Source: Bolinopsis microptera (Eukaryota > Ctenophora > Tentaculata > Lobata > Bolinopsidae). Taken from it: a stretch of DNA of 64,000 nt. Position 1 is the stretch's first letter; each line of letters opens with the position of its first letter. The position numbers were made by a program, and so were the translations under genes. A model generated the notes under the pieces. The model saw only the letters and a program-made list of their open reading frames with translations, made no database searches and was not told the origin of the DNA. Location: contig NC_087084.1 of NCBI RefSeq assembly GCF_026151205.1, forward strand, positions 16,094,227 to 16,158,226. Reading direction: 5' to 3'. Positions 1,191-56,650 of the stretch are shown piece after piece.

Positions 1191-1194
1191 ATCA

Positions 1195-1590: not shown

Positions 1591-1613
1591 AAAAGAGGCT
1601 TGTAACGTGTACC

Positions 1614-4809: not shown

Positions 4810-4940
4810 AGAAACACAAGGATGTTCCAGGTAGGTGATATGACAGTAAAATTCACACAAATGGTTCGTCGTGTTGCCTTGCAACTATATCTGGGAAGAT
4901 TAAATGATCAAACAGATCTCGAAATATCTGACTTGAAAGT

Positions 4941-5045: not shown

Positions 5046-5148
5046 AAACTTCAGAATGTTTGATTTGTTATTAAATCACTTGTTTTATTTGTTTTTACTG
5101 GAAACTGTACTATAAAAACCAGATTCTTACTCTACTGCAAAGAAACAC

Positions 5149-5266
5149 TTGTATCACGTGGTGACCCCCACTGTCGCTTCACTATAGTGAAGCTATACCT
5201 GTAGAGTTTCGACGATACAGGGGGAGCCGAGCACTCGTGCGCGGCGGGTCATACAACGTATGACAA
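5149..5266 (-). mobile_element. small structured element, copy inside the duplicated unit
   Basis: Sequence and 8-bp flanks (AGAAACAC at 5141-5148 and 5267-5274) are the same as at 4692-4809, because the whole surrounding unit is duplicated. It is not an independent insertion. Confidence 0.8.
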
Positions 5267-5397
5267 AGAAACACAAGGATGTTCCAGGTAGGTGATATGA
5301 CAGTAAAATTCACACAAATGGTTCGTCGTGTTGCCTTGCAACTATATCTGGGAAGATTAAATGATCAAACAGGTCTCGAAATATCTGACTTGAAAGT

Positions 5398-5552
5398 GTA
5401 AGGGTAAGGGTTAAGGTTAGGGTTAGGGTTAGGGTTAGGGTTAGGGTTAGGGTTAGGGTTAGGGTTAGGGTTAGGGTTAGGGTTAGGGTTAGGGTTAGGG
5501 TTAGGGTTAGGGTTAGGGTTAGGGTTAGGGTTAGGGTTAGGGTTAGGGTTAG
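5398..5552 (+). repeat. telomere-type (TTAGGG)n tract 2
   Basis: About 23 TTAGGG units after the same degenerate leader as tract 1. The tract stops abruptly at 5552, where sequence equivalent to the inside of the LINE reverse transcriptase begins. Confidence 0.95.
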
Positions 5553-6560
5553 GCTTTGGTATGGTCAGAAGAGATGGCCATATTGTATTGTCAGAACGTC
5601 GCGGGCGCTTTACTCTACTGGTTCGTAGCCTCAATTCGAAAATTGTTCCTTAATCTGGCGCCCTTGTATTAAATCACTTAGTTGATAAATTAGAAAGTCT
5701 CAAAAGAGGCTATAAAATGGATTCTGTCTGATGAGGGCCGCGTTATCCACCTGAGCTATATGTCAAAATGCTGCAATGCTTGTCGACAATTTTCCTTTGT
5801 ATCAAAAGTGTGTCTTGGGAATGATCTTATTTTTTTCACAAAAGTTCTTAACAATTTAATTCCTGCTATCACTGCCTCACTATCTCTCTTTTATTAGGGC
5901 ACTTCGGACTATGACGTGCCACCTCGACAGTTGTCTATTGTGTCATCAATTTTTACTAAGTTAAGTTCAGAATTCACACACCACATGTACCTCAAATAGC
6001 CCAACTGGCTAAATATTTTTCTACAGAACCCATATACTGTGGACATGGACTCCCTTTACAGGGGTAAGACAGATTGTTGTCTACTAGTCTTTTCAAAGCT
6101 GTGGTCACTAGATCTTTGGAAATGTTTATTGGATAGTGAAACAACAGTCTAGCCTTGTCTCTTTGCCTCCACATATTATTTTTTTTTGTTTTACTTAATT
6201 TTTTTTATCTACCTTTCTATACTTTCAACAATCTATCACACTTCACCCGCTCACCGGTCTCACACATTATTGACCATTTCAGACCTTGTATCTAATGTAT
6301 CTGGAATTTGACGTATTGAAATACAATTTTGACTTATATCCACAGTTATTCACCATGGATTGTTTGTTTTATATAGTTTTTCATTAAATTTTTGGATTTA
6401 GATTAATTCGAGTAATGGGTCCAAGTTACTGCGGGACTTAGTTCACTATGTGTTTTACCGTGTTGGTGCCCATCATATTTTACAGATGGGGGCGATATTT
6501 TTGAACGATTCTATTTTATATTCATTCTTTGCTGTACTTGTAAAATTTGAAAGTATTTAA
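5553..6560 (+). mobile_element. LINE (CR1/Jockey-like), 3' part, sense, indel-rich
   Basis: It matches the cleaner copy from 55628 to the 3' end (56640) and begins inside the reverse-transcriptase ORF at the TTAGGG junction. Compared with the 55.6-kb copy it carries many one-base insertions and deletions, so no long frame survives. It forms the left arm of the first palindrome together with 8030-9050. Confidence 0.8.
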
Positions 6561-8030
6561 TAAAAATAAATAAAATTAAATTAACTTAACTAAATCAAAA
6601 ACAAAATCAAACGAAACGAACGAAATGAAGAAAATGAAATACAAGAACAAAACTAAATTATAAATAAAATTCCTAAAAGCATTCTTCAGTAAACTTGTTG
6701 GTGTGCCTAATTTAACTTATGAGTTCCCTCCTCTATTTAATAGGATTGCATCTTTATTTAAAATAATATAAAGTTTATCGTTAGGCACGTGATGGACAAT
6801 CTTGCGTACCCCCTTGTTTCGGAGGAGCATGTTTGATTATTTTCCAAGATATTTAATATGGTGTTTGTTATCTTTCAACTCCTTTTTTTTGATAGCTCCG
6901 TCTGATTTCGTAGCTTCTCGAGTTTGAAAGAGTTTTGTGTGAAATGAAAAACGGGTCTTAAAGTGTTTTCAGTAAGCCCATTTATTGGTGCTCTTTCTTT
7001 TCATTTACCATGCAATAGTTGCTTTATATTTCACTGGCTGCTTCAGGCATTGGTCCGTTCAGTGGGACATTTCGGCTTTCTGCATGCACGTTTTCGATTT
7101 AATTGTGGTTCTTTCTTGAGCTTTGTTCTGGTGCTCGCTAGATGGATCCTACGTTGGTAGGCAACGTATGATTGCTTAATTGTGGTTTCTGTGAACCATT
7201 TTGTGAAATTGGTATCCTCTGGGGAAGTGCTCTTTATTTTCTTTTCACTGCATAGTTGCTTCATATATCATGCTGTTCCAGCATTGTCCGTTCAGTGGGA
7301 CATTTCCGGCTTTCTGCAAATGTAACAACAAACATAGGCAAGAGCTTCCTCCGTTACTAGACATGCACTTCCCAGAGACACCAATTTACAAAATGTTCAA
7401 CAGAATCACAATTAAGCTATTCATCAGTTGCTACCCAACGTAGGATCCATTTAGCGAGCACCAGACACCAAGCTCAGAACAGAATACAATTAAATCGAAA
7501 ACGTGCATTGCAGAAAGCGGAAATGTGACACTGAACGGACAATGCCTGAAGCAAGCAGTGTTATATAGGAGAACTATTGCAGTGGAAAATGAAGAAGGCA
7601 CAAATATATTGGGCTTACTGAAAACATTTTAAGACCGTTTCAGTTCACAACAAGCTATTTCAACTCGAGAAGCTACGAAATCAGAGCGGAGCTATATAAG
7701 AAAATATGGGAGTTGAAGATAAAACAATCCCTATAAAAATCTTGGAAATAATCAAACATGTCATCCGTACAAGGGGGGTACGAAAGATTGTCTCTCTGCC
7801 TTACTGAAAAACTTTATATTATTTTAAATAAAAGATGGCAATCTATTAAAATAGGAGGAGGAACTCATAAGTATATGTAGGCACACCAACAAGTTTCTGC
7901 TGAAGAAATGCTTTAGGAATTTTATTTAAGTTTAGTTTTTGTTTTGTATTTTCATTTTCGTTTCAATTTCGTTTCGTTTCGTTTGATATTTGTTTTTGAT
8001 TTAGTTAAGTTAAGTTAATTTTATTTTTTT
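6561..8030. repeat. palindrome B1 (LINE 3' flanks joined head-on)
   Basis: The left arm to 7230 pairs with the right arm from 7365 (GGGGAAGTGC against GCACTTCCC), leaving a loop of about 134 nt (7231-7364). The loop contains a second copy of an arm segment ending CATTGTCCGTTCAGTGGGAC, followed by a unique stretch containing CTTCCTCCGTTACTAG. The same loop, in the same orientation, returns at palindrome B2. Confidence 0.85.
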
Positions 8031-11000
8031 TATTATAATACTTTTACAAATTTTACAGAAGTAACAGAATAGATGAATATAAAATAGAATCGTTCAAAAA
8101 TATCGCCCCATCTGTAAAAAATATGATGGGCAACCAAACACGTAAAACATCGTGACACTATGGCAGCAGTAACTTGGACCCATTACATCGAATTAATCTA
8201 AATCCAAAAATTTATGAAAAACTATTTAATAACAAACAAATCCATGGTGAATAACTGGGATATAGAGTCAATATTGTATTTCAATACGTCAAATTCCAGG
8301 ATACATGAGATTCAGGTTGAAATGGTCATTAATGTGTGTGAAGTGTGCGGGTGAAGTGGATTTGATGGTGAAAGTATAGGAAGTAGTAAAAAAATTAATA
8401 AACAAAAATAAATTAATAATATGGGGAGCAATGAGACTAGGCTAGGACTGTTGTTTCACATCCAATAAACATTCCATAGATGCTTGGTGACCTCAGCTTT
8501 GAAAATGATAGTTAGACACAATCTGTCTTACTGTAAAGGAGTCCATACCCACAGTATATGGTTTGTAGAAAAAATGATTTTGCAGTGGGTATTTGACGGT
8601 AATGTGGTGTGTGAATTCTGTAAACTTAGGTAAAATGTTGACACAATAGACAGGACTGTCAAGGTGGCTACGTCTTAGTAGAGAAGTGCCCTGTTTATAA
8701 AGAGAGATAGTGAGGCAGTGATACAGGAATTAAATTAGTTATGAACTTTGTGGAAAAAATAAGATCATTATGTCAAACTTTTGAGACATGGGAGAATTGT
8801 CGACAAGCTTGCCTTTTTTGACATATTGCTCAGGTGGATAACTGCGGCCCTCTCCAGACAGAATCATTTAATAGCTTTTTGGAGACTTTCTAATTTATCA
8901 TAAGTGATTTATTACATGGGCGACAGAATTATGGAACAAATTTTCGAATTGGTACGAACCTGGGAGAGGTAAAGCGCCGGCGACGTTTCTGATCAATGAC
9001 AAAATGGCCATCCTTGACCATACAGTTGGTGGCAGGCTTAGTATAAAATTCTGTCGCACTGGATATTTAACTTAGCTTAGGAGTAAACATCGACTCAAGA
9101 TCTTTTTCTACTTTACATACACAAGAGGAGAGCCATCAAGTTGTATGCGATTGGAGGAGATAAAGATGGTTTTCCTGAAACAATAAGCAATTTAATTTTG
9201 CTGGATGGAATCGCATTTTGTTTCTTTGTGCCCAGTCAGAGGATAGTCTATATCATTGGTAATTACGTATTATCTAGAAGATGAATGTTTTACGACCAGA
9301 TTTTTTGTTATCATCGGATACAAACCAATATCAGATTATCCGAAAGGCAAGAGGAATATCATGATAAACAATACAAAAAGTAGGGACCAAGATTGAGAGC
9401 CATAGGGGAACCAGAATTAACTGAGAGGGTAGTTGGATATCATACCAAAACCACTCTTTGGTAACGGCCTTGGAAGGTTATTGGTTAGAAATTTGTGAAG
9501 TTTGTTCCGTCAATGTTATATAAGGTCTTTAGCTTATGAAGAAGGATTCATGATTTACAGAATCAAATGCCTTAGAAAATCAAAATACACAAAATGATTG
9601 ATATGTTTTGTTAAGAGACAATGCAGGCTATCACAAAAGTCAACCATATTGGTTGTGCATGACTTGTTGCTCTAGATAAACCATCGCTGCCTGGGATCAG
9701 AAGGGTACTTGTTCAAAGAAAGCAGTTTACGTTTAACAATGCGTCAAAACTTTCATGATAAACAAGTAAGGGATATTGGTCTATAGTTTTCAACCTCATT
9801 TTTCTTACCTTTCTTAATATTGGGACAACATTTGCAAGTTTCATTTCTTGTGATTGTTGCCGCTGTTGTAGATCACGGAAAAATGAGGTTAGAGGGTATG
9901 CTAACCTACGGAACAATTTTTGAGAATTTTACCGTGTATGCCATTTCTGGTCCCTTGGGCTTTATTGAATTAATATTTGGAAAGAGCATACGAACATCCG
10001 ATGAATCGTAGTCTATATAAAATCAACATCTTTGTCATAGGAGATATCAGTGTCATAAGTGAAAGGATCCGATAAACTGGTTCTAAAAGAAAGAATTGAA
10101 AAGTTCGCTTGAGCCTTTGGGTTGAAACGAAGCTGTCCAGAATAACTAACACAATTAGGAATTGGCAGGAGTTAGATTGATTATTAAACTGTGACCAAAA
10201 ACTTCTTCGTTATTAGCGCTGGATCATCACTATTGAAAAGATTGTCTCTTATTTGGAGATGAAAGCCTCTTAAAAATCTTTACAGGCTAGTAACAAACTT
10301 AACTCATCAGAAATAGAAACCAGAATTTTTAAATTAGATCTGAGTCTATCCTTTTTTACGGCATGAAGAAAATGTTCACTATCGAACCACGGGGTTGAAT
10401 CTCTGATTTAATAGTTCTTTAGGAATAATGTATATCAATATATTCATAATGCAGTCTTTAAAACTAACTTCCAAGACGAATTCAGATCTAGGCATTCTAG
10501 GACTTGCCAATTAATCGAGCATATTCCACGATTAATTCCATGTCAGTTTGCTTTCTTATAATTATAGTTTTACGTTTAGGAGTTTTCTTGCGGGATAGGA
10601 GCTTTTAATTGAAAAAGTGACGGAAAATGATCAGATTTGCACACGGAATGAGGGTCACAGACATTAAGTTATCGATTGTGTTATCATAATTACTGAGAAG
10701 AATGATACTGTTTACCACTTTTATGGGGTGGGTTGATGTGATCAACTGGAGGAGAGAAAGATCACTGAAGAATCTATGAAGGTTTGCTCATAGGTACGGT
10801 ACTGGATGAAGATAGCAGTCTGTATGGGGGAGTTTAAAAATCTCCAATAACATAGATTTTAGGGGGGATTCTTTTGGAAAACTAGCTTGCGTATATAACT
10901 ACTATGACATCATGATTAGGTAACCCAAGAGTTCCTACTCTATAAACAAGTACAGATTACAATTATCTCTTTGTTTGGAAAAGCAATTTTAACGGCAAGC

Positions 11001-12595
11001 ATTTCTGACCTTGGCTAAATGGTAGTCGGGTGTAGTGGCATCGTAGATCAGACCGAAATAGCCAAAGAACACCACTCCATTTTCCCTATACTTTTTTAGG
11101 GTTTTTAGGATCTCCTTTAACCTTCTGGGAGAGTCTTTCTCGGTGCGGTCATTGCGGAAGATGTCTATTGAGAAGAGGGAATGATTCGTTGCCTAGATAT
11201 AGATTTTTTGAGCCAAGTCTATTTAGGGCAATTATGTCAGGCTGTCTATGTTAGCAAAGGATTGAAGTTCGGAAACTTATTACCTATCAAGAAGGGGATG
11301 GGAGGTGCTTAGGTTACTGAAAGGAATAAGACCTTGGAATTTTGGTAGATGTATAGATAGGGAGTTGGGACTGGAAGTATGCATAAAGATTACAAGAGTT
11401 ATTCTCAAAAAAAGTTAAGAGAGAAAAACCCAAAGATGAATAAAGATACTAGACGCCTGAGGCGGCTGGAATACTTGACTCTATTCATCTTTCCTGGAGA
11501 GAAATTTCTTATAAACCATGAGGAGGATAATTACAAGAACAGTTTGATGTGGGAGCAAGCAAGAAATGGTATTAGATAAGTGGGGGCTGTCAAGGAGTAG
11601 AGAGGAATGAATATTAGAATCTAGGGGGGAATTACGGTGTTCATGGCCTAGTGTGGAGGAGAAAGAATTGGAGAAGGTAAGTCATGATGTGAGAATAGAA
11701 GAGAACATATGATTATGATAAGTTGTAGTTGATGTGTGGGGTTGCATGGAGATTTAAATGTGTAATTTTTGTTAGGGTATAAAGTGCTTGATATTGGTAT
11801 ATGTGCATTTCTTGACTGTGTACGAGGCCTTTTGCATGCAAAAAGACCTATTCTAAGTCTAACGATTTCTTTGTCTAAATATGGAAAAATGGGCAAGTGA
11901 CGGAATGTTCTGAAATAGGAGGCATAAATTTGAGAAAAAGATGAAATCGAGATTTGTTTGAGTTTTATTTTTAGCGCAACGTCTTAATCAAAATATTAAT
12001 TGAAAGAAAAGTCAAGATTTAATTCCCAGAAGATTATTTACAACCTTCAAAAACTGTGTTCGTTTACAACAAACTAAAGCAAGTGGACAGTAAACATACT
12101 CCTCTCATGTTGAGATGAATCCAATCATGGTATAGAAGTTTATTACATGTTCTAAGTCTCGAGTTAAAAAGTTTGAGAAACAGTCTTGGAAAACACGCAA
12201 TATTCTTTAGGGCATAAGTTCTTAAGTAGATTGTTAAAATTAGAACATTCTTTGCTTTTGTAGGAATATAAAACACTATAATAGGAAGATCAACTTTGAC
12301 ATTTATATTTGCAGCGGAAATAACTGTAGTAGTGTCAATTAATTCAGAAAGTACTCCTATAGGATCTGAACCCCATACTTTAGAATGTTTATGTCATTAG
12401 TACCAACACTCCAATATTAATTTTTTTCCCAACATCGTCAGCTCTGCAGCTGCATGGTTTTATTGAAAATGATGGAAGGAGCTTGTAAGGAAAACATGGG
12501 ATTTAATTAATTTAATAAGTTATTCTGACACTGTTGATTGCATTTGCATGAAACTCTGGAGTTTGTAGAATCGTTGTGTCATTAATAATATTATA
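8030..12595 (-). mobile_element. LINE (CR1/Jockey-like), antisense, near full length, indel-rich
   Basis: It reads on the minus strand from an AT microsatellite at 12.6 kb (5' side) to an A-rich 3' end near 8.03 kb. Broken frames correspond to an endonuclease region (10.5-11.3 kb) and a reverse transcriptase (8.9-9.9 kb, where the segment LANVVPILRKV is readable). One-base indels interrupt every domain. All are consistent with one element of about 4.6 kb. Confidence 0.75.
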
Positions 12596-13700
12596 TATGT
12601 ATATATATATATATATATATGTTATATATATTTATATATATATATATATATTTTATTTTAAACTTGAGAAAATTTCCCCGGCAACGGGGGACATAGACAG
12701 AAAAAACACGAAAATCGACCTCAAATTGACCCCTTGGTGATGCCAAACCCAGCTCGCAAATGGAGTTGAAACCTCGCCATTTTTAGCAGGGTTGTAGAAA
12801 AGGATAGGATAGGCTATAGGCATTCTTAGGAATTTTGATTTAGGCTTTCGATTTTTTATAATTAACGTCGGAAGTGAGGTTAAATAATCGTTAGATTATG
12901 GCGTTATCTTAGCTAGGGTTTTACTGCGCTGTTGCGTAGCAACGTTAATAATGCACGTGCGCGTGCAACCACAGATTAACATCGCGCGTTGTTATGCTGT
13001 ATGTACGTCATTTATTTCTAAACTAGTCACTTTTACGCTCACGCTATGGACCTTCTTATAAAACTTTGTTTGTGATTGGTATTTTGATGCGGTAAAAAGT
13101 ATCGTTTTGGGAATTCGTATATACAATCGCTGTCGCCATTGTTAGATAAATTCCATTTATGTCGACAGCGTTGTTAGTATTCGGATTCCCAAAACGGGTA
13201 CTTTTTACGCATAAAAATACCATCACAAACAAAGTTATATAGAGTTCATAGCGTGAGCGTAAATGTGGAGCTATTTTGATTTATGAAGTAGCATACTGCT
13301 TATCAACGCGCGTTTGTTAATCTGTGGTTGCTCGCGCACGTGCATTTTTAGTTGCTACGCAACAGCGCAGTAAACCTTTGCTTAAAAACGCCATTATTTG
13401 AACGTTTATTTAACCTACTTTCCGGACGTTAATTATAAAAATCTAAGCCTAAATCAAAATTCTAAGAATGCTATAGCCTTTTTTCCTATCCATTTTCTTC
13501 AACCTGCTAAAAATGGTCGAGGTTTCAATCATTTGCGAGTGGGTTTGCATCACAGAGGTCATTTTGAGGTCGATTTTCGGTGTTGTTTTCTTTCTAGATC
13601 CCCGTTGCCGGAGAAATTTCGTCAAGTTTAAAATTTAATATAGATTTATATATATATATATATATATACTATTATATCTATATAGATATATATATATATA
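12596..13700. repeat. palindrome A1 (LINE 5' flanks joined head-on)
   Basis: Two arms of about 540 bp flank the core CGCTGTCG (13128-13135) and CGACAGCG (13163-13170), with a 27-nt loop. The arms include a (TA)n microsatellite at their outer ends, GCGGTAAAAAGTATCG-type motifs and a GTTGCGTAGCAAC segment. The same core and loop in the same orientation recur at palindrome A2. Confidence 0.85.
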
Positions 13701-16700
13701 TATATAATGAAAACAACGATTCTACATTTCAGAGTTTCATGCAAATGAATCATCAGTGTCAGAATAACGTATTTAATTTAATAAATTCCTGTTTTTCCTG
13801 ACAAGCTCCTTTCATCATTTTTCATAAAACTCATTCTGCCTGCAGAAGCTTGGTCGATATTGATAACATTTAGATTGAGTGTTGGGGTACTAATTGACAT
13901 TAAAAATTCTAAGTATGGGATTCTGTTACTTTAGGAGTTTCTGACTGATTTAATTGACACCACGAAGCAGTTATTTCCGCTGCAATTATATTGTCCCTTG
14001 TTCGTCTTCCTATTAGTGTTTATATTCCTACATAGAAAGGAATGTTCTAGATGATTTTAACAATCTACTGAAAGACTTTTGCTAAAGAATAATTGCGTGG
14101 TTTGAATGTTTCTCAACTTTTTATCTCGAGACTTTAGTTCATGTTATGAACTTCTATACTTGATTGGCTTCATATCAACATGAGAGGAGTTGGTTTACTG
14201 TTCACTTGGCTTAAGTTTGGTTGTAAACGAACTCAGTTTGTAAGGGTTGTTAATATTCTTCTGGGAATTTAATCTTTGATCTTTTTATTTCATTTATTAT
14301 TTTGATTTAGACGTTGCGCCTAAAATTAAAACTCATATCAAATCTGCGGATTATTCGTGTCTCATTGTTAGGCCTCCTATGTCAGGTTCATTCGGTCATG
14401 CCCATTTTTCCATATGTTAGACATGAATCGTTTAGGACTTAGAATAGGTCTTTTTTGCATGCAATAGGCCTCGTACACAGTCGAAATGCACATATACATT
14501 CAACAGTTTATACCTAACTAAATTTACAATTTAATTCTCCATGCACCCCAAAATCACCTACAATTATCATAATCCTTTGTTTCTCTTCTATTCTCTCCAT
14601 CATGACTTACCTTCGCCAATTCTTCCTCACGACTAGTCATGAACAACCGTATTACACTAGATTCTAATATTCATTCTCTTACTCCTTGACAGCCCACGGT
14701 TATCTTATACCATTTGTGCCTTGCTCCACATCAAACTTTTCTTTGTTAATTATCTTCTCAGGTTTATATGAATTGTTCATCTCCACCACGCGTAAGATGA
14801 TTGCTCGTCTAGTATTCCAGCCCGCCTCTGGCGTCTCGTCTCTTTTTTCATTCTTTGGGTGTTCTCTCTTAACTTTCTTTTGTAAACTCTTGTTAATACT
14901 TCTATGGCTTAACTCCAGGTCCAAACTCCTATCTATACTTACCAAATGTCCAAGGTCTTATTTCCTTTCAGTAACTAAGCTCTCCATCCCCTTCTTGATG
15001 GTACATAAGATTGTCCGAACTTTCAATCCTATGCTACATAGAGCAGCATCCTGACCTAATTTCGCCCTAAATGAGACTTGGCTCATATATATTATTCTTG
15101 CAACGAACTTCTTTCCTTCTTCTCAATATGAAATCTTCCGGCAATGACCGCACGAGGAAAGACTCATCTCAAGATTCCTAATAACCCTAAAAAAGTTTAG
15201 GGAAAATGGATGTGGTGTTTCTTTTGGCGTTCGGTTGATCTCGTTGCCACTACAACCGACTAACCAGTTAGTAGTGCAGAATAGCTGCCGTTAAAATTGG
15301 CTTTTCTAACAAAGTGAGTATTGTAATCTGTACTTTGTTATAGAGTAGGAACACTCTTGGGTTACCTAATCATGATGTCATAGTTTGTTATATTCGCAAG
15401 CTAGTTTCCAAAATGAATCCCCCTTAATATCTATGTTATTGGTGATTTTTAATTCCCCCCATTCAGAACTGGCTATCTCTTCCAGTTACCGTACCTATTG
15501 AGCAATCCTTATAGTTTCTCTTCTGTGATCTTTCTCTCTCCCAGTTGATTCACACTCCACCATAAACGAAGTGGTAATACATTAGACATTCTTCTCAGTA
15601 ATTATGATAACACATCGATAACTTGAATTTCTGTGATCCTCATTCCGTGTGAAATTGATCATTTTTCCTGGTCTCTTTTTCAATTAAAAAGCTCCTTTTT
15701 CAGCAAGAAAAATCTAAAGTATAAAATCTATAATTATAAGAAAGCACAAACTGGGACATGATTATCGGGAATTATGCTCGAAATTGGCAAGTCCTAGAAT
15801 GCTAGATCTGATTTCGTCTTGGAAGTTTGTTAAGGACTGCATTATGATTTAGGTGTTATACATTATTCTTAAAGTAATATTAATTCGAGTTTCCACCCCG
15901 TGGTCCGCTAGTGAACTTTTTTCTTCATGCCGTAAATGGATAGACTCAGATCTAAATTTTAAAATTTCTGTTTATTTCTGATGTGTTAAAAGTTTTGTTA
16001 CTAGGTAAGATTTTTAGAGGCTTTCACAGCCAAAATAAGAGGACATCTTTTCAATATTGATGATCCAGCGCTAAAAACTAAGAAGTTTTGGTCACATGTT
16101 AAGTATAAATCTAACTCCTGCCGGTTCCTAATTGTGTTAGTTATTCTGGATCAGCTTCGGTTCAAACCAAAAGCTCAAGCTTGAACTTTTCCATTCTTTC
16201 TTTTAAACCAGTTTTCGGATCCATCACTTTATGACACTGATATCTCCTTTGTAAATGATGGTGATTTTGATATTGACTTCGATAATCGGAGTTCGTTAAG
16301 CTTCCTTTCAAATATTAATTCATATAAAGCCCAGGACCCAGGATGGCATACAGGTATATTCTCAAAAATTGTTCCGGGAGGTTTAGCTTACCCTCTAACA
16401 TGCATTTTTCGTGGATCTGTACAACAGGTACATTCCACAAAAATGGAAAACTTGCAAATGTTGTCCCAATATTTAAGAAAGGTAAGAAAAGTGAGGTTGA
16501 AAAAAACTAAGCCCAATATCCTTACTTGTTTTGTCATTGTGTAAGTTTTTGTGCGCATTGTTAATCGTAATCTGCTTTCTTTGACAATTACCTTCTTGAT
16601 CCAGGCAGCATGGTTTTCTAGAGCACAAGTCATGCACATCCAATATACGGTTTGACTTTTGTGATAGCTGGCATTGTCTCTTAACAAAAATTATCAATCA

Positions 16701-18285
16701 TGTTGTGTATTTTGATTTGCTAAGCCATTTGATTCTGTTAATCATGATATCTTCTTCATTAGCTAAAGACCTTATATTACATTGATGGTACATTCTCAAA
16801 TTTCTTGCCAAGTACCTCAAGGCCGTTACCAAAGTGTGGTTTTTGTAAGGAGATGTCATCTACCCTCTCTGTTAAATTCCTGGTGTCCCCCAGGGCTCTA
16901 TTTTGGTCCCTTACTTTTTGTATTGTTTATCAATGATATTCTTCTTTGGCCTTTCGATTATACTGATTTGTTTTGTTGCCGTTGATACAAAAATCTGGCG
17001 TAAAATACATTATCTTCTGATAATACTAATGTACAATGGATATAGACTATATCTCTGATGGGCACCTAAGAAACAAATGCGTTTCCATCCAGCAAATGTA
17101 AAGTGCTTATATGTTTCAGGAAAACCATCTTTATCTCCTCCATTGCATACATCTTGTTGGCTCTTCCTCTTGTGTATGTAGAGTTAGAAAAAGATCCTTG
17201 GAGTCGATGTTACTCCTGAAGCTAAGTTGGAATCAGTCAGTTGCGACCAGTATTTTATACTAAGGCCTGCCAACAACTTGTATGGGCAGAAAGAGATGGC
17301 ATATTGTCATTGTTCAGAAACGTCGCCGGGCGCTTTATCCTCTCCCTGGTTGTAGCCAATTCGAAAATTGTTTCCATATCTGGGCCCTTGTAATAAATCA
17401 CTTAGTTGATAAATTAGGAAGTCTCCAAAAGAGAGTATTAAATGGATTTCTGTCGGAAGAGGGCGCAGTTATCACTGAGCATTATTTCTAAAAGTCATGC
17501 TTGTGACATTCTCCTTTGTCTCAAAAAGTTTGTCTTGAATGTTCGTATTTTTTTCCACAAAGTTCTTAACAATTTAATTCCTGTATCACTTGCCTCACTA
17601 TTCTCTTCTTTTATCAGGGCACTTCTCGACTAAGACGTTGCCACTCCGTCAGTCTGTCTATTGTGTCATCTATTTCCTAAGTTAAGTCTGAATTCACACA
17701 CCACATGTACTCTATAGCCCACTGGCAAAATCATTTTTTACAGAACCCTATAATGTGGAAGGGACTCCTTTACAGGTAAGACAGATTGTGGTTTTACCTA
17801 GTCTTTTCAAAGCTGAGGTCACTAAGATCTATGGAATTGTTTATAGGATAGTGTAAAACAGTCTAGGCTAGTCTCTTTGCTACCATATTATTATTATTTT
17901 TTGTTTTATTAATTTTTTAATCTACCTTCCTATATTTCAACTCATATCACACTTCACCGCCACACATTCTCGACATTTATGACCATTTCAGACCTGTATC
18001 TAGAATGTATCTGGAAATTTTGACGTATTGAAATACAAATTTTTGATAATCTATATCCACAGTTATTCACATGATTGTTTGGTGTTTATATAGTTTTCAT
18101 AAATTTTTGGATTTAGAGTTAATTCGATTAATGGGTCCAAGTTACTGCGGGACATAGTTCCTATGTGTTACGTGTTTGGGTGCCATCTACTATTTTACAG
18201 ATGTGGGGCGATATTTTGTAGTTTCTATTTTTATTTTTCATCTATTGCTGTTTCTCTGTATAAATTTGGAAAGTATTTAATAATA
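13700..18285 (+). mobile_element. LINE (CR1/Jockey-like), sense, near full length, indel-rich
   Basis: It is the mirror of the 8030-12595 copy. A frame fragment near 15067-15085 reads LNETWL, a typical motif of the APE-type endonuclease of non-LTR retrotransposons. The reverse-transcriptase region lies at about 16.45-17.2 kb, with the equivalent of FAKAFDSVNHD near 16.7 kb broken by indels. The 3' UTR ends in an A-rich tract near 18.28 kb. No intact ORF remains. Confidence 0.8.
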
Positions 18286-19750
18286 AAAATAAATTAAACC
18301 TTAACTTATCTAATCATAATAAAAATCAAACGAAACGGAAACGCAATTTGAAACGAAAAAATGAAATACAAGAACAAAAACTAAAATTAAATTAAAATGC
18401 CTAAAAGCTTTTCTTCAGCATAAATTGTTGTGTGCCTACATTTACTTATGAGTTCCCTCCTCCTATTTAATAGATTGCCATCTTTTATTTAAAATAATAT
18501 AAAGTTTTTCAGTAAGGCAGAGATGACAATCTTTGTACCCACTTGGTACGGAATGGCATGGGTTTGATTATTTCAAGATAAGTTATTTGGTGAATGTTTA
18601 TCTTTCAACTCCATATTTTCTTGAAAGCTCGTCTGAATTCGTAGGTTCTCGAGTTGGAAAAGAGTTGTGTGTGAAACTGTAAGGGTCTAAAGTGTTTTTT
18701 CAGTAAGCCAATATATTTGTGCTCTTTCTTTTCAAATTTTCCACTGCAATTCGTTGCCTTCATATATCACAGCTGTTCCAGGGCATTGCCGTTCAGTGGG
18801 CTAATTTCGGCTTTCTGCAATTTCACGTTTTCGTTTAATAGTGGTTCTTTCTGAGCTTGGGCTGGTGCTCTCTAAGACGGATTCCTTCGTTGGGTAGGGC
18901 AACTGTATGGTAGCTTAATTGTGTTTTTGTTGAAAATTTTTGTGAAATTGGTGTCTCTGGGAAGTGCTTTTCTTTCAGTTTACCACTGCAATAGTTGCTT
19001 CATATATCACTGCTGTTCCAGGCATTGTCGGTTCAGTGGGCACATTTCGGCTTCTGCAAATGTAAACAAACAACTTAGCACGTTCCTCCGATTACTAGGA
19101 CAAAGATTCCAGAGGAACCAATTTCACAAATGTTCAACAGAAAACAATTAAGCTATCTTAACAGTGCCTACCACGTAAGGAATCCATCTTAGCGGCACCA
19201 GACACCAAGCTCAGAAAGAACCTACAATTAATCGAAAAGTGCAATTGCAGAAGCGGAATTGTGCCCTGAACGGACCACTGCTGGAAGCATCAGTGATATT
19301 TGAAGCAAATATGCAGTGGAAAATGAAAGAAAGAGAATTATTGTGGCTGATGAAATCACTTTAAGACCGTTTTCAGTTCACACAAGTCTTCAAACTCGAT
19401 GAAGCTACGATATCAGCGGAGTATTTAGAAAAATATGGAGTTGAAAGATAAACAAACACATATAAATATCTGGAAAAAATAAACTGCTATCGTACAAGGG
19501 GGTACGAAAGATTGTCATCTCTGCTTACTGAAAAACTTTATATTATTTTAAATAATGATGGCAATCTATTAAATGGAGAGAGGGAACTTCATAAGTACTG
19601 TAGGACACCAACAAAGTTTATGCTGTAAGAAATCGTTTAGGAATTATTTTAATTTAGTTTTTGTTCTTGTATTCATTTTTGTTTCAAATTAGTTTCGTTT
19701 CGTTTGATTTTGTTTTGATTTTGTTAAGTTAAGTTTATTTTATTTCTTTT
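18286..19750. repeat. palindrome B2
   Basis: Second occurrence of the B-type centre, at about 19035. The loop again carries the GTTCAGTGGGCAC and GTTCCTCCG..TACTAG segments in the same orientation as B1. The distance B1 to B2 is about 11.74 kb. Confidence 0.85.
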
Positions 19751-22700
19751 TATTAAAAAAACTTTTCAAATTTTACAGAGTTCAGAATAGAGAATATAAA
19801 AATAGGAATCGTTCAAAATATCGCCACCATCTGTAAAATTGATGGGACCCAAACCACGAGTAAAACACATAGTGAAACTATGTCCGCAGTAATTGGAATT
19901 ACATCGAATTAATGCTAAATCCAAAAATTTATGAAGAAATATTCATAACAACATAATATGGTGAATAACTGTGGATATAGAGTCCAAATTTGTATTTTCA
20001 ATACGTCAACTTCCAGATACATTAGATACAGGTCTGAAATGGTCATTATGTGTGAGAAGGTGTGCGGGTGATGTGTGTTTGATGTTGAAAGGTATAGGAA
20101 GTAGATAAAAAAAAATTAATAAAACAAAAAATAATATTATGGGGAGCAAAGAGCTAGGCTAGATGTTGTTTTCACTATCAATAGAATTTCCATAACTGCT
20201 TAGTGATAGCTTGAAAAGATAGTAGACACAATTGTACTTACTGTAAGGGAGTCCCCCACCCCACCCATTCCACAGTATATGGGTTTGTAGAAAAATGGAT
20301 TTTGCCAGTGGGCTATTTGAGGTACATGTGGTGTGTGAATTTGACTTCTTAGGTAAAATTATGGGACTCAATAGACCAGACTGTCGAGGTGGCAAGTCTT
20401 CGTCGAGAAGTGCCTGATATAAAGAGAGATTAGTGAGGCAGTGATCCAGGAATTAATTGTTAAGGGAACTTTGTGGAAAAAAATAAGATCATTCAAGTCA
20501 AACTTTTGAGACAAAGGGAGATGATTGTCGACAAGCTTGCACTTTTTGACATATTGCTAGGTGGATAAACTGCGGCCCTCTTCAGACAGAGTCCATTTAA
20601 TAGTCTCTTTTGGAGGATTTCTAAATTTATCAACTAAGTGAATTTATTACAAAGGGCGCCAGATTATGGAACAATTTTCGAATTGGATAACGACCAGGGA
20701 GAGGTAAAGCGCCCGGCGACGTTTTGATCAATGACATATGGCCAATACTCTTCTGACATCCAAGGTAGGTGGCAGGCATTAGTATAAAATTCTGTCGCAC
20801 TGATATTCCACTTAGGTATGAGTAAATCGACTCCAAATCTTTTTCTAACTTCTACATACACAAGAGGAGTGCCATCAGATTGTATGCGAATGGAGGAGAT
20901 AAAGAGGTTTTTCCTGATAATAAGCACTTTACATTTTGCTGGATGGAATCGCATTTTGGTCATTAGTGCCCAGTAGAGAGATAGTATATATCCATTTGTA
21001 AATTGTATTTATCATGAAGATGATGTATTTTACGCCAGATTTTTGTTTAATCGGCATACAAAACATTATCAGTATTATCCGAAAGGGCAAAGGAATCTCA
21101 TTGATAAACATCAAAAATAAGGGACCAGAATAGAGCCATGGGGACACCAGGATTAACTGAGAGGGTTGATGACATCTCATTACCAATACCACTCTTTGGT
21201 AAATCGGCCTTGAGGTAATTCGGTAAGAAATTTGAGAAGTGTACCCATCAATGTTATATAGGTCTTTAGGCTTATGAAGAAGGATATATGATTTACGAAT
21301 CAAAATGCCTTATGCAAATCAAAATACAAACATGATTGATAATGTTTTCGTTATGAGACAATGCCAGGTATCACAAAAAGTCAACATATTGGTTGTGGCA
21401 TGACTTGTGCTCTAGAGAAACCTTGCTGCCTGGATCAGAAGGGTACTTGTCAAAGAAAGCAGTTACGTTTAACAATGCGTCAAACTTTCAGGACTAAACC
21501 AAGTAACGGGATATTGGTCTATTGTTTCAACTCACTTTTCTTCCTTTCTTAAATATTGGACACATTGCAAGTTTCCATTTTTGTGGATGGTAGCCGCTGT
21601 TGTAAGATCCACGAAAAAATTGCATGTTAGAGGGTAAGCTAACTTCGGAAAAATTTTGAGATTTACGTGTATGCATCTGGTCCCTGGCTTTATTTGAATT
21701 ATATATGAAAGAAGCTTACGGAACATCCCGATGATCGAAGTCAATATCAAAAATCAAACATCATTGACATAGGAGATATCAGTGTCGCATAAAGTGATGG
21801 TTCCGAAAAATGGTTATAAAGAAGAATTGAACAGTTCAGTTGAGCTTTGGGTTTGAACCGAGTGTTCCACGAATTACTAACACAATTAGGAAATACGGCG
21901 GAGTTAGTATTTATATTATAATGTGACAAACTTCTTTGTTATTGCGTGGATCTTCACGATTTGAAAAGATTGTCTCTTATTTTGGTGATGAAAGCATCTT
22001 AAATCTTTAGGCTAGATACAACCTTTAAACTATCAGAAATAGAACAGAAATTTTAAATTTAGATCTGAGTCTTTCCTTTTTACGGCATGAAGAAAAAAGT
22101 TCATATCTGAAACCACGGGGGTTGAAAATCTGATTTAAATGGTACTTTACGGAATATGTATATCAATAAATTCATAATGCAGTCTTTAACTAACTTCACA
22201 AGACGAATCAGGTTTAGGCATTCTAGGACTTGCCAATTAATCGGCATTAATTCACGAATTAATCATGATTCAGTTTGCTTTCTTATAATTATAGATTTTA
22301 CGTTTAGGAGTTTTTTGGGGAAAAGGAGCTTTTATTGAAAAAGGGACAGGAAAATTGATCAGATTTGCCACGGAATGAGGATCACGACATTCAAGTTAGC
22401 GAGTGTGATATCATAATTACTGAGCAAGGGAATGTCTAATGTATTACCACTTTTATGGGTGGGTGTTGTGATAACATGGGAGGAGAAAGAATCACTGAAA
22501 GAATTATGAGGATTGCTCATAGTACGGTATGGATGAAGATAGCAGTCTGGATGGGCGGAGATTAAATTCACAATAAATAGATTTTAGGGGGATTCTTTTT
22601 TGGAACTAGCTTGCGAGTAACTAACTATGGGACATCAAGATTAGGTAACCCAAGAGTTCCTACTCTATTACAAGTACAGATCTTACAATACTCTCTTTGT

Positions 22701-24315
22701 TAGGAAAAGCACTTTTAACGGCAAGCATTTCTGCACCTAGGCTAACTGGTAGTCGGGTTGTAGTGGCATCGAGATAAGACGAAAAGCCAAAATGACACCA
22801 CCTCCATTTTCCCTAACTTTTTAGGGTTATTGGATCTCTGAGGGATGAGTCTTTCTCGTTGCGGTCACTTGCGGAAGATTTCATTATTGAGAGAAGGAAA
22901 GGATTTAGTGTAGAATAGATTTTTTGAGCCAGTCTCATTTGGGCAATTATGTCAGGCTGCTCTATGTTAGCAAGGATTGAAGTTCGGAAAATTTATTCCA
23001 TCAAGAAGGGATGGGAGGAGCTTAGGTTCTTGAATGGAATAAGACCTTGGACTTTTGGTAGAGTATAGATAGGGAGTTGGGACCTGGATTAAGCATAGAA
23101 GGATTTAACAGAGTTATCAAAGAAAGTTAGAGAGAAAACCAAAGAATGAATAAAGATACTGAGCCTGAGGCGGTGGAATACTTGACTCTATTCATCTTAC
23201 AGGTGAAGAACATTTCTTATAAACCATGAGAGATTAATTACAAAGAAAAGTTTGTTTGTGGGAGCAAGCAAGAATGTATAAGATAACGTGGGGGCTGTCA
23301 AGGAGTTAGAGAGGAATGAATAATAGAATTAGGGGGGAATCGGGTTTCATGGACCTAGTGTTGAGAGAAAGAATTGGGAGAAGGTAAAGTCATGATGAGA
23401 GAATAGATGTAGAAAACATATTGATTATGATTAAATTGTGTTGATGTGTGGGGTGCTGGAGATTTAAATGTGTAAATTTTGTTAGGTATAAAACGTGTTG
23501 TATGTATATTGCATGTCTTGTCTGTGTTACGAGTGCTTTGCATGCAAAAGGTCCTTTTTCTAAGTCTTAACGATTATTGTCTAAACATATGGAAAAAGGG
23601 CAGTGACCGTATGTAACCTGAAATAGGGAGGCATAAAATTGAGAAAACAAAAAGGATTTTAAAAATAATCAGAGATTTCGTTTGAGTTTTTAATTTTAGG
23701 CGCAACGTCTTAATCAAAAATTATTAATAGAAAGAAAGATCAAAGAATTAAATTCCAGGAAGGGAGTATTTATAAACCTGTCAATAAACTGTGTTCGTTT
23801 ACATCAATCTTAAGCAAATGTGGCAGTTAAAAACCTACTCCTTCTGTTGAGGTGAAGCCTAATATGGTATTGAAGTTATTACATGATCTAAAGTCTCGAG
23901 TTAAAAGTTTTGAGAATAAAACAGTCTCGGAACACGACAATTATTCTTTAGGCCATAAGTCTTGAAGTAGATTGTTAAAATCTAGAAATTCTTTGCTCTG
24001 TAGGAATATTAAACTTAATAGGAAGACAAACTTTGGACAATTATAATTGCAGAGGGAAAATAAATGCTTAGTGGTGTCAATTAATTCAGATAAGATACAT
24101 TCCTAAGGAACTGAACGCATACTTAGATGTTAATGTCATTAGTACAACACTCTAATAATTTTTTCAATATCCGTCTGACTTCTGCAGCCTGCATGAGTTT
24201 TATGAAAATGATGAGAGCTTGTAAGGAAAACTTGGATTTATTAATTTAATAAGTTATTATGACAGATGATTGCATTTGCATGAAACTCTGAGTTTGTAGA
24301 ATCGTTTGTTTTCAT
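19750..24315 (-). mobile_element. LINE (CR1/Jockey-like), antisense, second near full copy, indel-rich
   Basis: Same content as 8030-12595. Minus-strand fragments include a reverse-transcriptase piece at 20.66-21.3 kb and an endonuclease piece at 22.36-22.57 kb. The indels differ from those in the other antisense copy, as expected of independent sequencing errors or independent decay. Confidence 0.75.
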
Positions 24316-24353
<38 letters not shown>

Positions 24354-25414
24354 TATGTATATATATCTATATATATATATATCTATATTATATTTTAACT
24401 TGACGAATTTTCCGGCAACGGGGACATAGAAGAAAAAACACGAAAATCGACCTCAAAATGACCTATGGTGATGCCTAACCCCAGCTCGACAAATGGAGTG
24501 AAACCTCGCATTTTTAGCAGGGTTGTAGGAAATGGATAGGAATGGCTATAGCATTCTTAGAATTTTTGATTTAGGCTTAGATTTTTTATGAATTAACGTC
24601 GGAATGTGAGTTAAATAATCGTTAGAATAATGAGTTATTTAGTCAAATGGTTTACTGCGCTGTTGCGTAGCAACGTTAAAATGCACTGTGCGCGGCGCAA
24701 CCAAGATTCACAACGCGCGTTGTTTTGCTGTATGTACGTCATAATATTCAAAACTAGCTCAAATTTTACGATCACGCTATGACTCTGATAACTTTGTTTG
24801 TGATTGGTATTTTTGATGCGGTTAAAAAAGTATCGTTTGGGAAATACGATTCTAACAACGCTGTCGCCATTGTTTAGATAAATTCCATTATGTCGACAGC
24901 GTTTGTTTAGTATTCGGATTCCAAAACGATACTTTTTACCGCATAAAAAATACCAATCACAAAAAAGTTATAAGAAGTATAGCGTGAGCGTAAATGTGAG
25001 CTAGTTTGAGATTATGCGTAGCATACAGCATAAACAAGCGTCGTTGTTAATCTGTGGTAGCTTCGCGCACGTGCATTTTAAACGTTGCTACCGCAACAGC
25101 GCAGTAACCTTTGCTTTTTAAATAACGCCATTATTCTAACGATTATTTACCTCACTTCCGACGTAAATTATATAAAATAAAGCCTAAATCAAAATTCTAA
25201 GAATGTATTGCCTATTCCTATCCTTTTTCTAAAACCCTGCTTAAAAATTGGCGAGGTTTCAACTCCATATTGCGAGCGTGGTTTGGGCATCTCCAGAGGT
25301 ATTTTGAGGTCTATTTTCGTGTTGTTTTCTTCTATGTCCGTTGCGGGAAATTTCGTCAAGTGTAATATATAATATAGATTTATTTATATATATTTATATA
25401 TGACTTATATAATT

Positions 25415-25445
<31 letters not shown>

Positions 25446-25450
25446 ATGAA
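24316..25450. repeat. palindrome A2
   Basis: Second occurrence of the A-type centre. The CGCTGTCG/CGACAGCG core lies at 24859-24866 and 24894-24901 around the same 27-nt loop. The distance A1 to A2 is about 11.73 kb, matching the B1-B2 spacing. Confidence 0.85.
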
Positions 25451-28400
25451 AACAACGATTTCTACAAAAAGGGTTTTATGCAAATGCAATCATCAGTGTC
25501 AGATTAACTTAATAAATTAATAAATCATGTTTTCCTTACAAGCTCCTTCTCCATTTCTTCATAAAAACCATGCAGCTGCAAGAAGCTGACGATATTGAAA
25601 AAAATTATATTGAGTTTGGTACTAATGACATTAACATTTAAGTTTGGGGTTCGTTCCTTAGGAAGTATCTTACTGAATAATGGACACCACTAAGCGTTAT
25701 TCCCGCAGCAATTATAATTGTCCAATGTTGTCTTCCTTTTAGTGTTTATATTAGACTTAGCAAAGAAATGTTCTAGATTTTAACAATCTACTTAAAGACT
25801 TATGCCTTAAAGAATATTTGCGTGTTCCTAGACTGTTTCTCAAACTTTTTTTAACGCGTGTCTTTAGATCATGTAATGAAACTTCTATACCTGATTGGCT
25901 ATCTCAACATGAGCGAGGAGGAAGTTTACTGTCCATTGGCTTAAGGTTTTGTTGTAAACGAACACAGTTTGACGGGTTGTAAGATTCTTCTGGGATATAT
26001 AATATAATCTTTGATCTATTCTTTTATTTAATATTTTGATTAAGACGTTGCGCAAAATTAAAACTAAAACAGAACTCTCTGTTTAACTTTTTTCTCAATT
26101 TTTTGCTCCTATTTCGGTACATTCGGTCTATGCCCATTTTTCATATGTTAGACAATGAATCGTTTAGACTTTAGAATAGGTCTTTTGCATGCAAAATGCC
26201 TCGTACACAGTCATGAAATGCACATATACATATCAACACGTTTTTTACCTACAAAATTTTCACATTATTCTCATGCACCCCACACATCAACTACAATTAT
26301 CTAATCTTATTGTTTCTATTCTATCTCTCATCATGACTTACCTTCTCCCAATTCTTTCTCCAACGATAGGTCCATGAAACACGTATTCACCCTAGATTCT
26401 AATATTCATTCCTTTACTCCTTGACAGCCAACGTTAACTTTTACCATTCTTGCTTGCTCCCACGCAAACTTTTCTTTGTAATTATATCCTCATGGTTTAT
26501 TAGATAATGATCTTCTCCTGGGTAAGTGAAATAGAGTTAAGTATTCAAGCGCCTAAGGCGTCTAGTATCTTTATTCCATTCTTTGGGTTTTCTCTCTTAA
26601 CTTTCTTTTGATAACTCTTGTTTATCCTTCTATGCTTAACAGGTCCCAACTCCCTATCTATACTCTACCCAAATGTCCAAGGTCTAATTCCTTTCAGTAA
26701 CTAAGCTCCTCCATCCCCTTCTTTGGTGGTAAATAAGATTTCGAACTTCATCCTTTGTTAAACCATAGAGCAGCTGACATAATTGCCCTAAATGAGCTTG
26801 TCAAAAAATCTATTTCTAGCAACGAATCTTTCTTCTTTCAATATGAATCTTCGCAATGACGCAGAGAAAGACTCATACTCAAGATCTTATACCCTAAAAA
26901 GTTTTTTAGGGAAAATGGAGGTGGTGTTATTTTGCTGTTCGGTCTGATCTCGATGCCACTCAACCGATACAGTTAGCCTAGGTGGCAGAAATGCTTGCCG
27001 TAAAATTTGCTTTTCCTAACAAAGAGAGTATTGTAATCTGTACTTGTTATAGAGTAGGAACTCGTGGTGTTACCTTAATCTTGGATGTCATAGTCTAGGT
27101 ATATTCGAAGCTAGTTTCCAAAAAGATCCCTAATCTTATGTTATTGGTGATTTAATTCTCCCCATAAGACTTGGCTATATTCATCCTGTACGTACTATTG
27201 AAGCAATCTTCATAGATTTTTAGTGATCTTTCTCTCTCCCAGTTGATCACATCAACACCATAAAAGGGTAATACATTAGACTTTCTTTCAGTAATTATGA
27301 TAACACAATCGATAACTTGAATGTCTGTGATCCCATTCAGTGTGCAAATTCTGATCATTTTCTGTCACTTTTCCAATTTAAAAGCTCCTTTTCGCAAGGA
27401 AAAACTCTAAACCGTAAAATCTATAAATTTTAAGAAGCAAACTGGGACAGATTAATCGTGAATTTATGTCGATTAATTGCAAGTCTAGAATGCCTAGATC
27501 TGATCGTTTGAAGTTAGTTAAAGACTGCATTATGATTTAGTTGATATACATATTCCTAAAGTAACTATTTAAATCAGAGTTTCAACCCGTGGTTCGATAG
27601 TGAAACTTTTTTCTTCATGCGTTAAAAAGGATAGACTCAGATCTAATTAAAATTTTGGTGTTTTACCCAGTGTTTATTTTGTGCGTTAAAGTTTGTTACT
27701 AGCTCGTAAGATTTTAAGAGGATTCATCAGCCAAAAATAAGAGACAATCTTATCAATAGTGATGATCCAGCGCTAATACTATGAAGTTTTGGTACATGTT
27801 AAGTCTAAATCTAACTCCTGCCGTATCTCCTAATTGTGTTAGTTATTTGGACAGCTTCGGTTCAACCTAAGTCAAAGCTGAACTTTTCAATTCTTTCTTT
27901 ATAACCAGTTTTCGGATCCTTACTTTTATGAATGTTATCTCCTATGTAATGATGTTGATTTTGATATTGACTTCGATCATCGGGATGTTCGTAAGCTTCC
28001 TTTCAAATATCTTAATTTCAAATAAAGCCCAGGGACCAGATGGCATACACGTAAATTATCAAAAATTGTTCCGTAGGTTTTGCTTACCTCTAACATTGCA
28101 TTTTTCGTGGATCTTACAACAGCGCTACATACACAGGAATGGAAAACTTGCAAATGTTTGTCCCATATTTAAGAAAGGTAAGAAAAGTGTGGTTGAAACT
28201 ATAGACCAATATCCCATACTTGTTAGTATGAAGTTTTTGAGCGAATTTGTTATCGTAAACTGCTTTCTTTGACAAGTACCCTTCTTGATCCCAGCAGCAT
28301 GGTTTTTAGAGCACAAGTCATGCACAACCAATATGGTTGACTTATGTGAGTAGCCTGGCATTGTCATCTTACGGAAACATTTATCAATCATGTTGTTGTA

Positions 28401-28570
28401 TTTTGATTTTGCTAAGGCATTTGATTCTGTAAATCATGATATCACTTCTTCATAAGCTAAAAGACTTATAAACATTGATGGTTTACATTCTCAAATTTCT
28501 TACCAATTTACCATTTCAAGGCCGTTACCAACTGTGTGGTTATTGTATTGAGATGTATCTACCCTCTTCT
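25450..28570 (+). mobile_element. LINE (CR1/Jockey-like), sense, truncated inside the RT
   Basis: It carries the 5' region, the endonuclease (an SDHF motif is readable near 27.34 kb) and the start of the reverse transcriptase, and then stops. The break follows GAGATGTATCTACCCTCTT, equivalent to position 55221 in the cleaner copy. The array therefore starts at the 55628-equivalent and ends at the 55221-equivalent, both in sense orientation. Confidence 0.75.
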
Positions 28571-54870: not shown

Positions 54871-56650
54871 AGCTTGTTTAGTCATGAAAGTTTTTGAGCG
54901 CATTGTTAAACGTAAACTGCTTTCTTTGACAAGTACCCTTCTTGATCCCAGGCAGCATGGTTTTCTAGAGCACAAGTCATGCACAACCAATATGGTTGAC
55001 TTTTGTGATAGCCTGGCATTGTCTCTTAACGAAAACATTATCAATCATGTTGTGTATTTTGATTTTGCTAAGGCATTTGATTCTGTAAATCATGATATCC
55101 TTCTTCATAAGCTAAAGACCTTATATAACATTGATGGTACACTTCTCAAATTTCTTACCAATTACCTTCAAGGCCGTTACCAAAGAGTGGTTATTGGTAA
55201 TGAGATGTCATCTACCCTCTCAGTTAATTCTGGTGTCCCCCAGGGCTCTATTCTTGGTCCCTTACTTTTTGTATTGTTTATCAATGATATTCCTCTTGGC
55301 CTTTCGGATAATACTGATATTGTTTTGTATGCCGATGATACAAAAATCTGGCGTAAAATACATTCATCTTCTGATAATACTAATTTACAAATGGATATAG
55401 ACTATCTCTCTGACTGGGCACTAAGAAACAAAATGCGATTCCATCCAGCAAAATGTAAAGTGCTTATTGTTTCAGGAAAACCATCTTTATCTCCTTCATT
55501 CGCATATAATCTTGATGGCTCTCCTCTTGTGTATGTAGAGTTAGAAAAAGATCTTGGAGTCGATGTTACTCCTTAGCTAAGTTGGAATAGTCAGTGCGAC
55601 AGAATTTATACTAAGGCCTGCCAACAACTTGGTATGGTCAGAAGAGATGGCCATATTGTCATTGATCAGAAACGTCGCCGGGCGCTTTACCTCTCCCTGG
55701 TTCGTAGCCAATTCGAAAATTGTTCCATAATCTGGCGCCCTTGTAATAAATCACTTAGTGATAAATTAGAAAGTCTCCAAAAGAGAGCTATTAAATGGAT
55801 TCTGTCTGAAGAGGGCCGCAGTTATCCACCTGAGCAATATGTCAAAAAGTGCAAGCTTGTCGACATTCTCCCTTTGTCTCAAAAGTTTGACTTGAATGAT
55901 CTTATTTTTTTCCACAAAGTTCTTAACAATTTAATTCCTGTATCGCTGCCTCACTATCTCTCTTTATATCAGGGCACTTCTCGACTAAGACGTTGCCACC
56001 TCGACAGTCTGTCTATTGTTTCATCAATTTTACCTAAGTTAAGTCAGAATTCACACACCACATGTACCTCAAATAGCCCACTGGCAAAATCATTTTTCTA
56101 CAGAACCCATATACTGTGGAATGGACTCCCTTTACAGGTAAGACAGATTGTGTCTACTAGTCTTTTCAAAGCTGAGGTCACTAAGCATCTATGGAAATGT
56201 TTATTGGATAGTGAAACAACAGTCTAGCCTAGTCTCTTTGCTCCCCATATTATTATTATTTTTGTTTTATTAATTTTTTTATCTACCTTCCTATACTTTC
56301 AACATCATATCACACTCCACCCGCACACCTTCTCACATTTTAATGACCATTTCAGACCTGTATCTAATGTATCTGGAATTTGACGTATTGAAATACCAAT
56401 TTTGACTCTATATCCACAGTTATTCACCATGGATTTGTTTGTTATTAAATAGTTTTTCATAAATTTTTGGATTTAGATTAATTCGATGTAATGGGTCCAA
56501 GTTACTGCGGACATAGTTCACTATGTGTTTACCGTGTTTGGGTGCCCATCATATTTTACAGATGGGGGCGATATTTTGAACGATTCTATTTTATATTCAT
56601 CTATTGCTGTACTCTGTAAAATTTGAAAAGTATTTAATAAAAAAAAAAAA
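54871..56650 (+). mobile_element. LINE (CR1/Jockey-like), 5'-truncated, clean copy
   Basis: Same family as the array at 5.5-28.6 kb, but without the pervasive indels. Homology to array copies begins at CTTGTTTAGTCATGAAAG (54871) and ends in an A tract at 56641-56650, typical of target-primed insertion with 5' truncation. No clear target duplication. It serves as the best reference for the noisy copies. Confidence 0.85.
54884..56227 (+). pseudogene. LINE reverse transcriptase, 5'-truncated with one nonsense codon
   Basis: One frame of about 447 residues is interrupted only by a TAG at 55574-55576. Upstream residues include VYFDFAKAFDSVNHDIL (palm motif A), NSGVPQGSILGPLLFVLF (motif B), VLYADDTKIW (active-site YADD), LRNKMRFHPAKCKVL and DLGVDV. 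After the stop the same frame continues with RIYTKACQQLG, LVRSQFENCSIIW, LQKRAIKWIL and FFHKVLNNLIPVSLPHY. The endonuclease and N-terminal RT are missing. The domain order and tail match CR1/Jockey-type LINEs. Confidence 0.85.

Follow-up and report, generated by a model that had tools for sequence, protein, structure and literature searches.

An alternating array of LINE copies in the Bolinopsis microptera assembly is very probably an uncorrected long read placed in a gap

The window analyzed here is a stretch of 64,000 nucleotides from the ctenophore Bolinopsis microptera (assembly GCF_026151205.1, contig NC_087084.1, positions 16,094,227 to 16,158,226 of the forward strand). Copies of a long interspersed nuclear element (LINE) follow one another in it in alternating orientation, with a period of 11.7 kb, and fill positions 5554-28567. 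We consider it very probable that this segment is a piece of an uncorrected Pacific Biosciences (PacBio) continuous long read (CLR) lying in an assembly gap, the template of which was likely a single-stranded circle of ~11.7 kb. The alternating LINE array is almost certainly not in the chromosome of the animal. On present evidence it is not a chromosomal structure; raw reads in gaps are an ordinary kind of artifact, and what is unusual here is the degree.

Self-comparison of the window gave a direct match between 5559-16868 and 17280-28567 and inverted matches throughout 5.56-28.57 kb, at 82-85% identity and far beyond chance. This bears out the alternating LINE copies and the 11.7-kb period of a preliminary description of this DNA. 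The two recurring loops it had reported, each fixed in orientation, were also recovered, loop A with 27 nt and loop B with ~133 nt (134 in the description). The longest self-match has more gap openings (1025) than mismatches (794). The left edge of the segment, at 5554, is where identity with another copy of the read, on contig C5, begins, and the right edge falls at 28567-28569.

The differences between the LINE units of the window are sequencing error, not evolution. As reference we used five nearly full-length clean LINE copies (L025-L029), one of which (L028) provided the comparison standard of 4490 bases. The four others differ from it by 13-37 substitutions and 1-8 indel events per 4490 bases, and the clean copies are ~99% identical to each other, whereas the window units are 9-11% off them. 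Set against L028, the five units carry 3.0-4.5% substitutions, 2.3-3.1% insertion events, and 3.1-4.6% deleted bases, their indels being mostly single-base. The longest open stretch is 1178 amino acids in four of the five clean copies and 1013 in the fifth, compared with 111-133 in the four longer window units. On the plus strand of the window, deletions remove C much more often than G (14 and 1, 62 and 17, 78 and 15, 79 and 19, and 73 and 9 in units 1 to 5; 306 versus 61 in sum), and A>T changes outnumber T>A changes (15 and 2, 61 and 7, 87 and 8, 40 and 12, and 31 and 12; 234 versus 41). This bias is tied to the plus strand of the window and not to the orientation of the LINE in all five units, the sense ones (1, 3, and 5) and the antisense ones (2 and 4) alike. 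Strand is the decisive test here: a bias borne by the element would flip its sign between sense and antisense units, and no flip is seen. Such a strand bias is absent from the five clean copies in which it was assessed (the four others and the one at 54873-56650), though their differences are few: the last of them has 11 substitutions, no deletions, and no insertions per 1774 reference bases. A strand-bound error bias is characteristic of uncorrected single-pass reads. Errors private to the window units are common to two units 3.3-4.7 times as often as in a shifted control in the three same-strand pairs and 1.5-3.3 times in the six opposite-strand pairs; same-strand pairs thus tend to share more of them, with ranges that overlap at the edge.

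Two other origins of these differences were ruled out. Evolutionary divergence of old inverted copies does not hold, since the error bias tracks the window strand and not the element. Nanopore sequencing was considered for its similar rates of substitution, insertion, and deletion, and was rejected because deletions show no consistent rise with homopolymer length (the one exception being the last unit, where runs of five lost 6 of 65 bases), because A>T changes are present in all 16 A-centered contexts at rates of 0.021-0.059 (2-6%), and because PacBio CLR is the technology given in the published methods.

The same noise is found at other loci. Thirteen contigs (C1-C13) make up ~258 of the 264.65 Mb of the assembly, the largest having 26,206,493 bases, and the window lies on C13. 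Searched against the genome, raw window pieces matched C5 at 100% in two places, near 15.26 Mb and near 9.55 Mb, and identity was 100% over 3.3-3.6 kb in all seven pairs compared (C13 with both C5 places at three centers, C9 with C5, and C1 with C5). The C7 segment is letter-identical to the end of the C13 segment over 645 bases (window 27925-28569) and then runs on past the point where the latter stops; judged by its letters, it is the following part of the read seen on C13. Identical noise links ~62 kb of read with the 11.7-kb period (C5 at 9.5 Mb, C5 at 15.2 Mb, C13, and C7), and if both halves of the C5 array are one read, its length would be ~139 kb. The spans matched by the unit were sampled at their edges and centers on C1, C5, C7, C9, C11, and C13, and their seven places (Table 1) combine to up to ~244 kb, 0.09% of the assembly. 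The segment on C11 is like the other noisy loci in structure and error signature. Among the flanks examined, which were both of C13 and both of C5 (15.2 Mb), those at the two C13 edges and the left C5 edge are clean, and the right C5 edge adjoins a different LINE patch, more error-rich and with the opposite strand bias. This second patch (C5 ~15361100-15363241; from ~1100 in L043 to 241 in L061) has many lengthened homopolymers and is probably another raw-read insertion.

The repeated unit consists of an A repeat, of which L046-L048 are native copies, the outer end of an element with terminal inverted repeats (TIRs), the LINE, and more of the arm of that element. Its LINE is 5' truncated and is the only coding content recognized in the unit, the noisy flanks having had no protein-family search. 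CR1-like LINEs are characterized by a first open reading frame (ORF1) with an esterase domain and a second one (ORF2) with endonuclease and reverse transcriptase. The clean copy L028, on C4, has two long open frames (576-1958 and 2056-5571), with a GDSL lipase/esterase domain in ORF1 and Exo_endo_phos and RVT_1 (endonuclease and reverse transcriptase) in ORF2, and by this domain content we take the array LINE to be CR1-like. The two flanks of the unit match dispersed repeats, and in the clean copies L049 and L050, which have no LINE, they nearly adjoin and form an empty site. Both of these copies are clean palindromes, L049 (C12:3090900-3095000) with 1673-bp arms, 99.9% identical, around a spacer of ~307 bp and L050 (C1:19292000-19294600) with 1069-bp arms, 99.9% identical, around one of ~313 bp; the family resembles fold-back or long-TIR transposons.

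Both turning points fall in the flanking repeats, outside the LINE, and the LINE is therefore not the cause of the turns. At end A, the strand passes 27 nt of genomic sequence and folds on CTGTCG/CGACAG, a stem of 6 bp. The two genomic copies compared have GTCTACAG where the read has GTCGACAG, and the stem may thus be a variant of this locus. At end B, the sense strand jumps back ~250 bases at GTGCT to an inner copy of a repeat, goes on for ~100 bases, and then continues as antisense at CAA. Repeat copies in the genome match loop A and its arm, and a single genomic element contains both parts of loop B. The junctions themselves are observed: end A has the appearance of a snap-back, end B that of a direct and an inverted microhomology jump. 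The process behind them would be accidental fold-back and template switching, which both ends resemble. The orientation of the loops relative to the read strand, as given by the error signature, is constant at all 15 noisy loci, which are mostly one read and not 15 independent tests, C11 being the only one that could be independent. Searches for clean junctions scored 40 candidates each (of 352, 44, 618, and 367). Among these, neither the two turning points nor the two LINE/flank junctions had a clean copy, no clean locus carried the LINE at this position (40 of 618 and 40 of 367), and the whole unit had no clean native locus. The standard SMRTbell adapter, the one adapter covered by our search of the window, is not at any turning point; its best fits lie elsewhere, at an edit distance of 15-16 of 45, and do not improve on the fits of 30 shuffles.

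The read is best accounted for by repeated passage around a closed dumbbell, one of the possibilities raised in the preliminary description, given loops fixed at every noisy locus examined and the long run of identical noise. The template would have been a 5.85-kb double-stranded piece of the genome, containing the A repeat, the 5'-truncated LINE, and part of the TIR element arm, closed by a hairpin at each end and thus equivalent to a single-stranded circle of ~11.7 kb. The sequencing polymerase would have circled this dumbbell many times, giving rise to the alternating copies, and segments of the read would then have been inserted unpolished into this and other assembly gaps. Since the loops carry no standard SMRTbell adapter, synthesis probably started from a nick or a free 3' end in the dumbbell. 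In this best reading, we infer how the molecule formed and was primed; our literature searches showed no paper on an adapterless dumbbell read by PacBio.

The history of the assembly speaks for this reading. Its methods, as given in PMC10232365, comprise PacBio Sequel II CLR reads, wtdbg2, TGS-GapCloser, Purge Haplotigs, and Pilon. As described in PMC7476103, TGS-GapCloser may fill several gaps with one read, does not use gap size, and may skip correction. Its raw-read fills resemble the present segments in being error-rich stretches of read between clean contig ends and in that one read may serve several gaps whatever their size; what sets the present case apart is the extent taken up by one concatemer read or its relatives, seven places and up to ~244 kb. 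From these published methods, we infer that TGS-GapCloser was the program responsible.

Several points weigh against this reading. In the self-comparison, no unit match lies beside either C13 edge, which leaves the alignment of the read to its flanks unexplained, and an adapterless read requires special priming. The C5 array is broken by letters reading N, in the single 2-kb piece fetched there. C11 had no near-identical overlap among the pieces compared, so that a second read or molecule is possible, and the absence of clean junctions rests on the 40 candidates scored per search.

Table 1. Features of the window and spans matched by the repeated unit in the assembly
Feature	Contig	Position	Strand	Basis
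Clean (TTAGGG)n tract, left border of pasted segment	C13 (window)	5401..5553	+	Read from sequence
Probable uncorrected long-read segment	C13 (window)	5554..28567	+	Strand-bound errors, identical noise elsewhere, exact edges
LINE pass 1, positions 3473-4490 of the 4490-base L028 reference piece	C13 (window)	5556..6569	+	LINE comparison
Loop B copy 1, ~133 nt	C13 (window)	7232..7364	+	Self-comparison, sequence reading, junction comparison with genomic copies
LINE pass 2, whole 4490-base piece	C13 (window)	8024..12474	-	LINE comparison
Loop A copy 1, 27 nt, between CTGTCG and CGACAG	C13 (window)	13136..13162	+	Sequence reading, junction comparison
LINE pass 3, whole 4490-base piece	C13 (window)	13811..18289	+	LINE comparison
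Loop B copy 2, ends approximate owing to errors	C13 (window)	~18969..19101	+	Self-comparison, sequence reading
LINE pass 4, whole 4490-base piece	C13 (window)	19744..24214	-	LINE comparison
Loop A copy 2, 27 nt	C13 (window)	24867..24893	+	Sequence reading
LINE pass 5, positions 10-3064	C13 (window)	25558..28567	+	LINE comparison
Clean copy of array LINE (3' part), control	C13 (window)	54873..56650	+	RVT_1 match; 11 substitutions and no indels in 1774 reference bases
Unit-matched span	C13 (window)	5554-28567		Unit matches
Unit-matched span	C5	15244855-15360978		Unit matches
Unit-matched span	C5	9540519-9572504		Unit matches
Unit-matched span	C7	13891658-13915208		Unit matches
Unit-matched span	C9	7647444-7672625		Unit matches
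Unit-matched span	C1	26055712-26064383		Unit matches
Unit-matched span (15.5 kb)	C11	17863376-17878873		Unit matches

The preliminary description had also proposed a genomic tandem array. As a rival reading, a true chromosomal array of the 11.7-kb palindrome would have defeated the assembler and the gaps would have been filled with raw reads drawn from it. An assembler would indeed break at such repeats, reads drawn from the array would look alike, the identity of C11 with the same read is not demonstrated, and the native locus of the unit is absent from the assembly among the scored candidates. However, the noise is letter-identical at several places, on different chromosomes, and cannot be local sequence at every one of them; among those candidates, moreover, neither turning point had a clean (multi-read) copy. 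Privately shared substitutions number only 0-5 per pair of units, so that no unit-specific variants stand out. One linear read would need an insert of 62-139 kb, a size to be set against typical CLR insert lengths, and the loop orientation at C11 agrees with an origin from the same strand, as it would by chance in 1 of 2 cases. We therefore regard a chromosomal array as improbable.

It is less probable still that hairpin-ended or inverted-concatemer DNA existed in the animal, as an extrachromosomal, rolling-hairpin-like fold-back product caught by the sequencer. In rolling-hairpin replication of the parvovirus type, orientation alternates and hairpins serve as turn-arounds, as they do here. 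Snap-back and microhomology junctions also form in cells, and the neighboring repeat family makes near-perfect palindromes in the clean genome (L049 and L050). Against this, apart from C11, which could come from a second one, there is no sign of more than one molecule, the junctions are off the center of the native palindrome, and no replication gene was recognized in the unit (noisy flanks without protein-family search); unlike in rolling-hairpin replication, the ends fold inside dispersed repeats and end B makes its turn in two jumps. In-cell rolling-hairpin replication, the third possibility of the preliminary description, is thus left without positive evidence, the 5'-truncated LINE being all that was recognized as coding. 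We likewise give little credence to the more specific idea that the dumbbell was a closed, hairpin-ended 5.85-kb DNA of ctenophore cells, made by fold-back synthesis beside a LINE-carrying TIR element.

Microhomology is a mark of the fold-back chimeras made by strand-displacing polymerases, and the jumps at end B fit such an origin. Whole-genome amplification before library construction can yield palindromic long reads (PMC6218980), and its fold-back chimeras share inverted junctions with the present segment; they differ from it in that here there are many regular passes instead of one fold. The assembly paper, in the methods it describes, mentions no amplification, and one palindrome read was found, not many (the genome was not surveyed for others), which makes an amplification chimera very unlikely. 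Least likely of all is an ordinary SMRTbell template with adapters missed by the software: PacBio reads are known to become palindromic in this way (PMC6218980), and those from missed or missing adapters resemble our segment in their single-pass, back-and-forth strand, alternating copies, and independent errors, but here the standard adapter, the only one searched for, is at no turning point, and loop A, its arm, and both parts of loop B are genomic sequence.

Some neighboring features deserve mention. The ~150 bases of telomere-type (TTAGGG)n that abut the left edge of the segment are ~250 kb away from the C13 contig end. The right flank has tandem copies on the same contig, four at 99-100% identity over 655 bases and one at 97% over 467, and C7:11710849-11725083 holds at least 21 copies of a related 164-base element at a spacing of ~703 bp. 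Just to the right of the segment there is an 889-amino-acid open frame with a reverse transcriptase domain (29298-31967), with no match to the array LINE in the window self-comparison. A direct repeat of 371 bp (99.5% identity) occupies window positions 2845-3689, with a tRNA match in each copy (2878-2950 and 3352-3424).

Once the segment is recognized for what it very probably is, a conspicuous structure can be set aside as false in a genome that is used for the study of early animal evolution. It also provides a simple test: where the differences between sense and antisense copies show one strand bias whatever the orientation of the copy, the array is a raw read. Up to ~244 kb at seven places appear to be inserts of this kind, and counts of genes, repeats, or palindromes made in them would be wrong.

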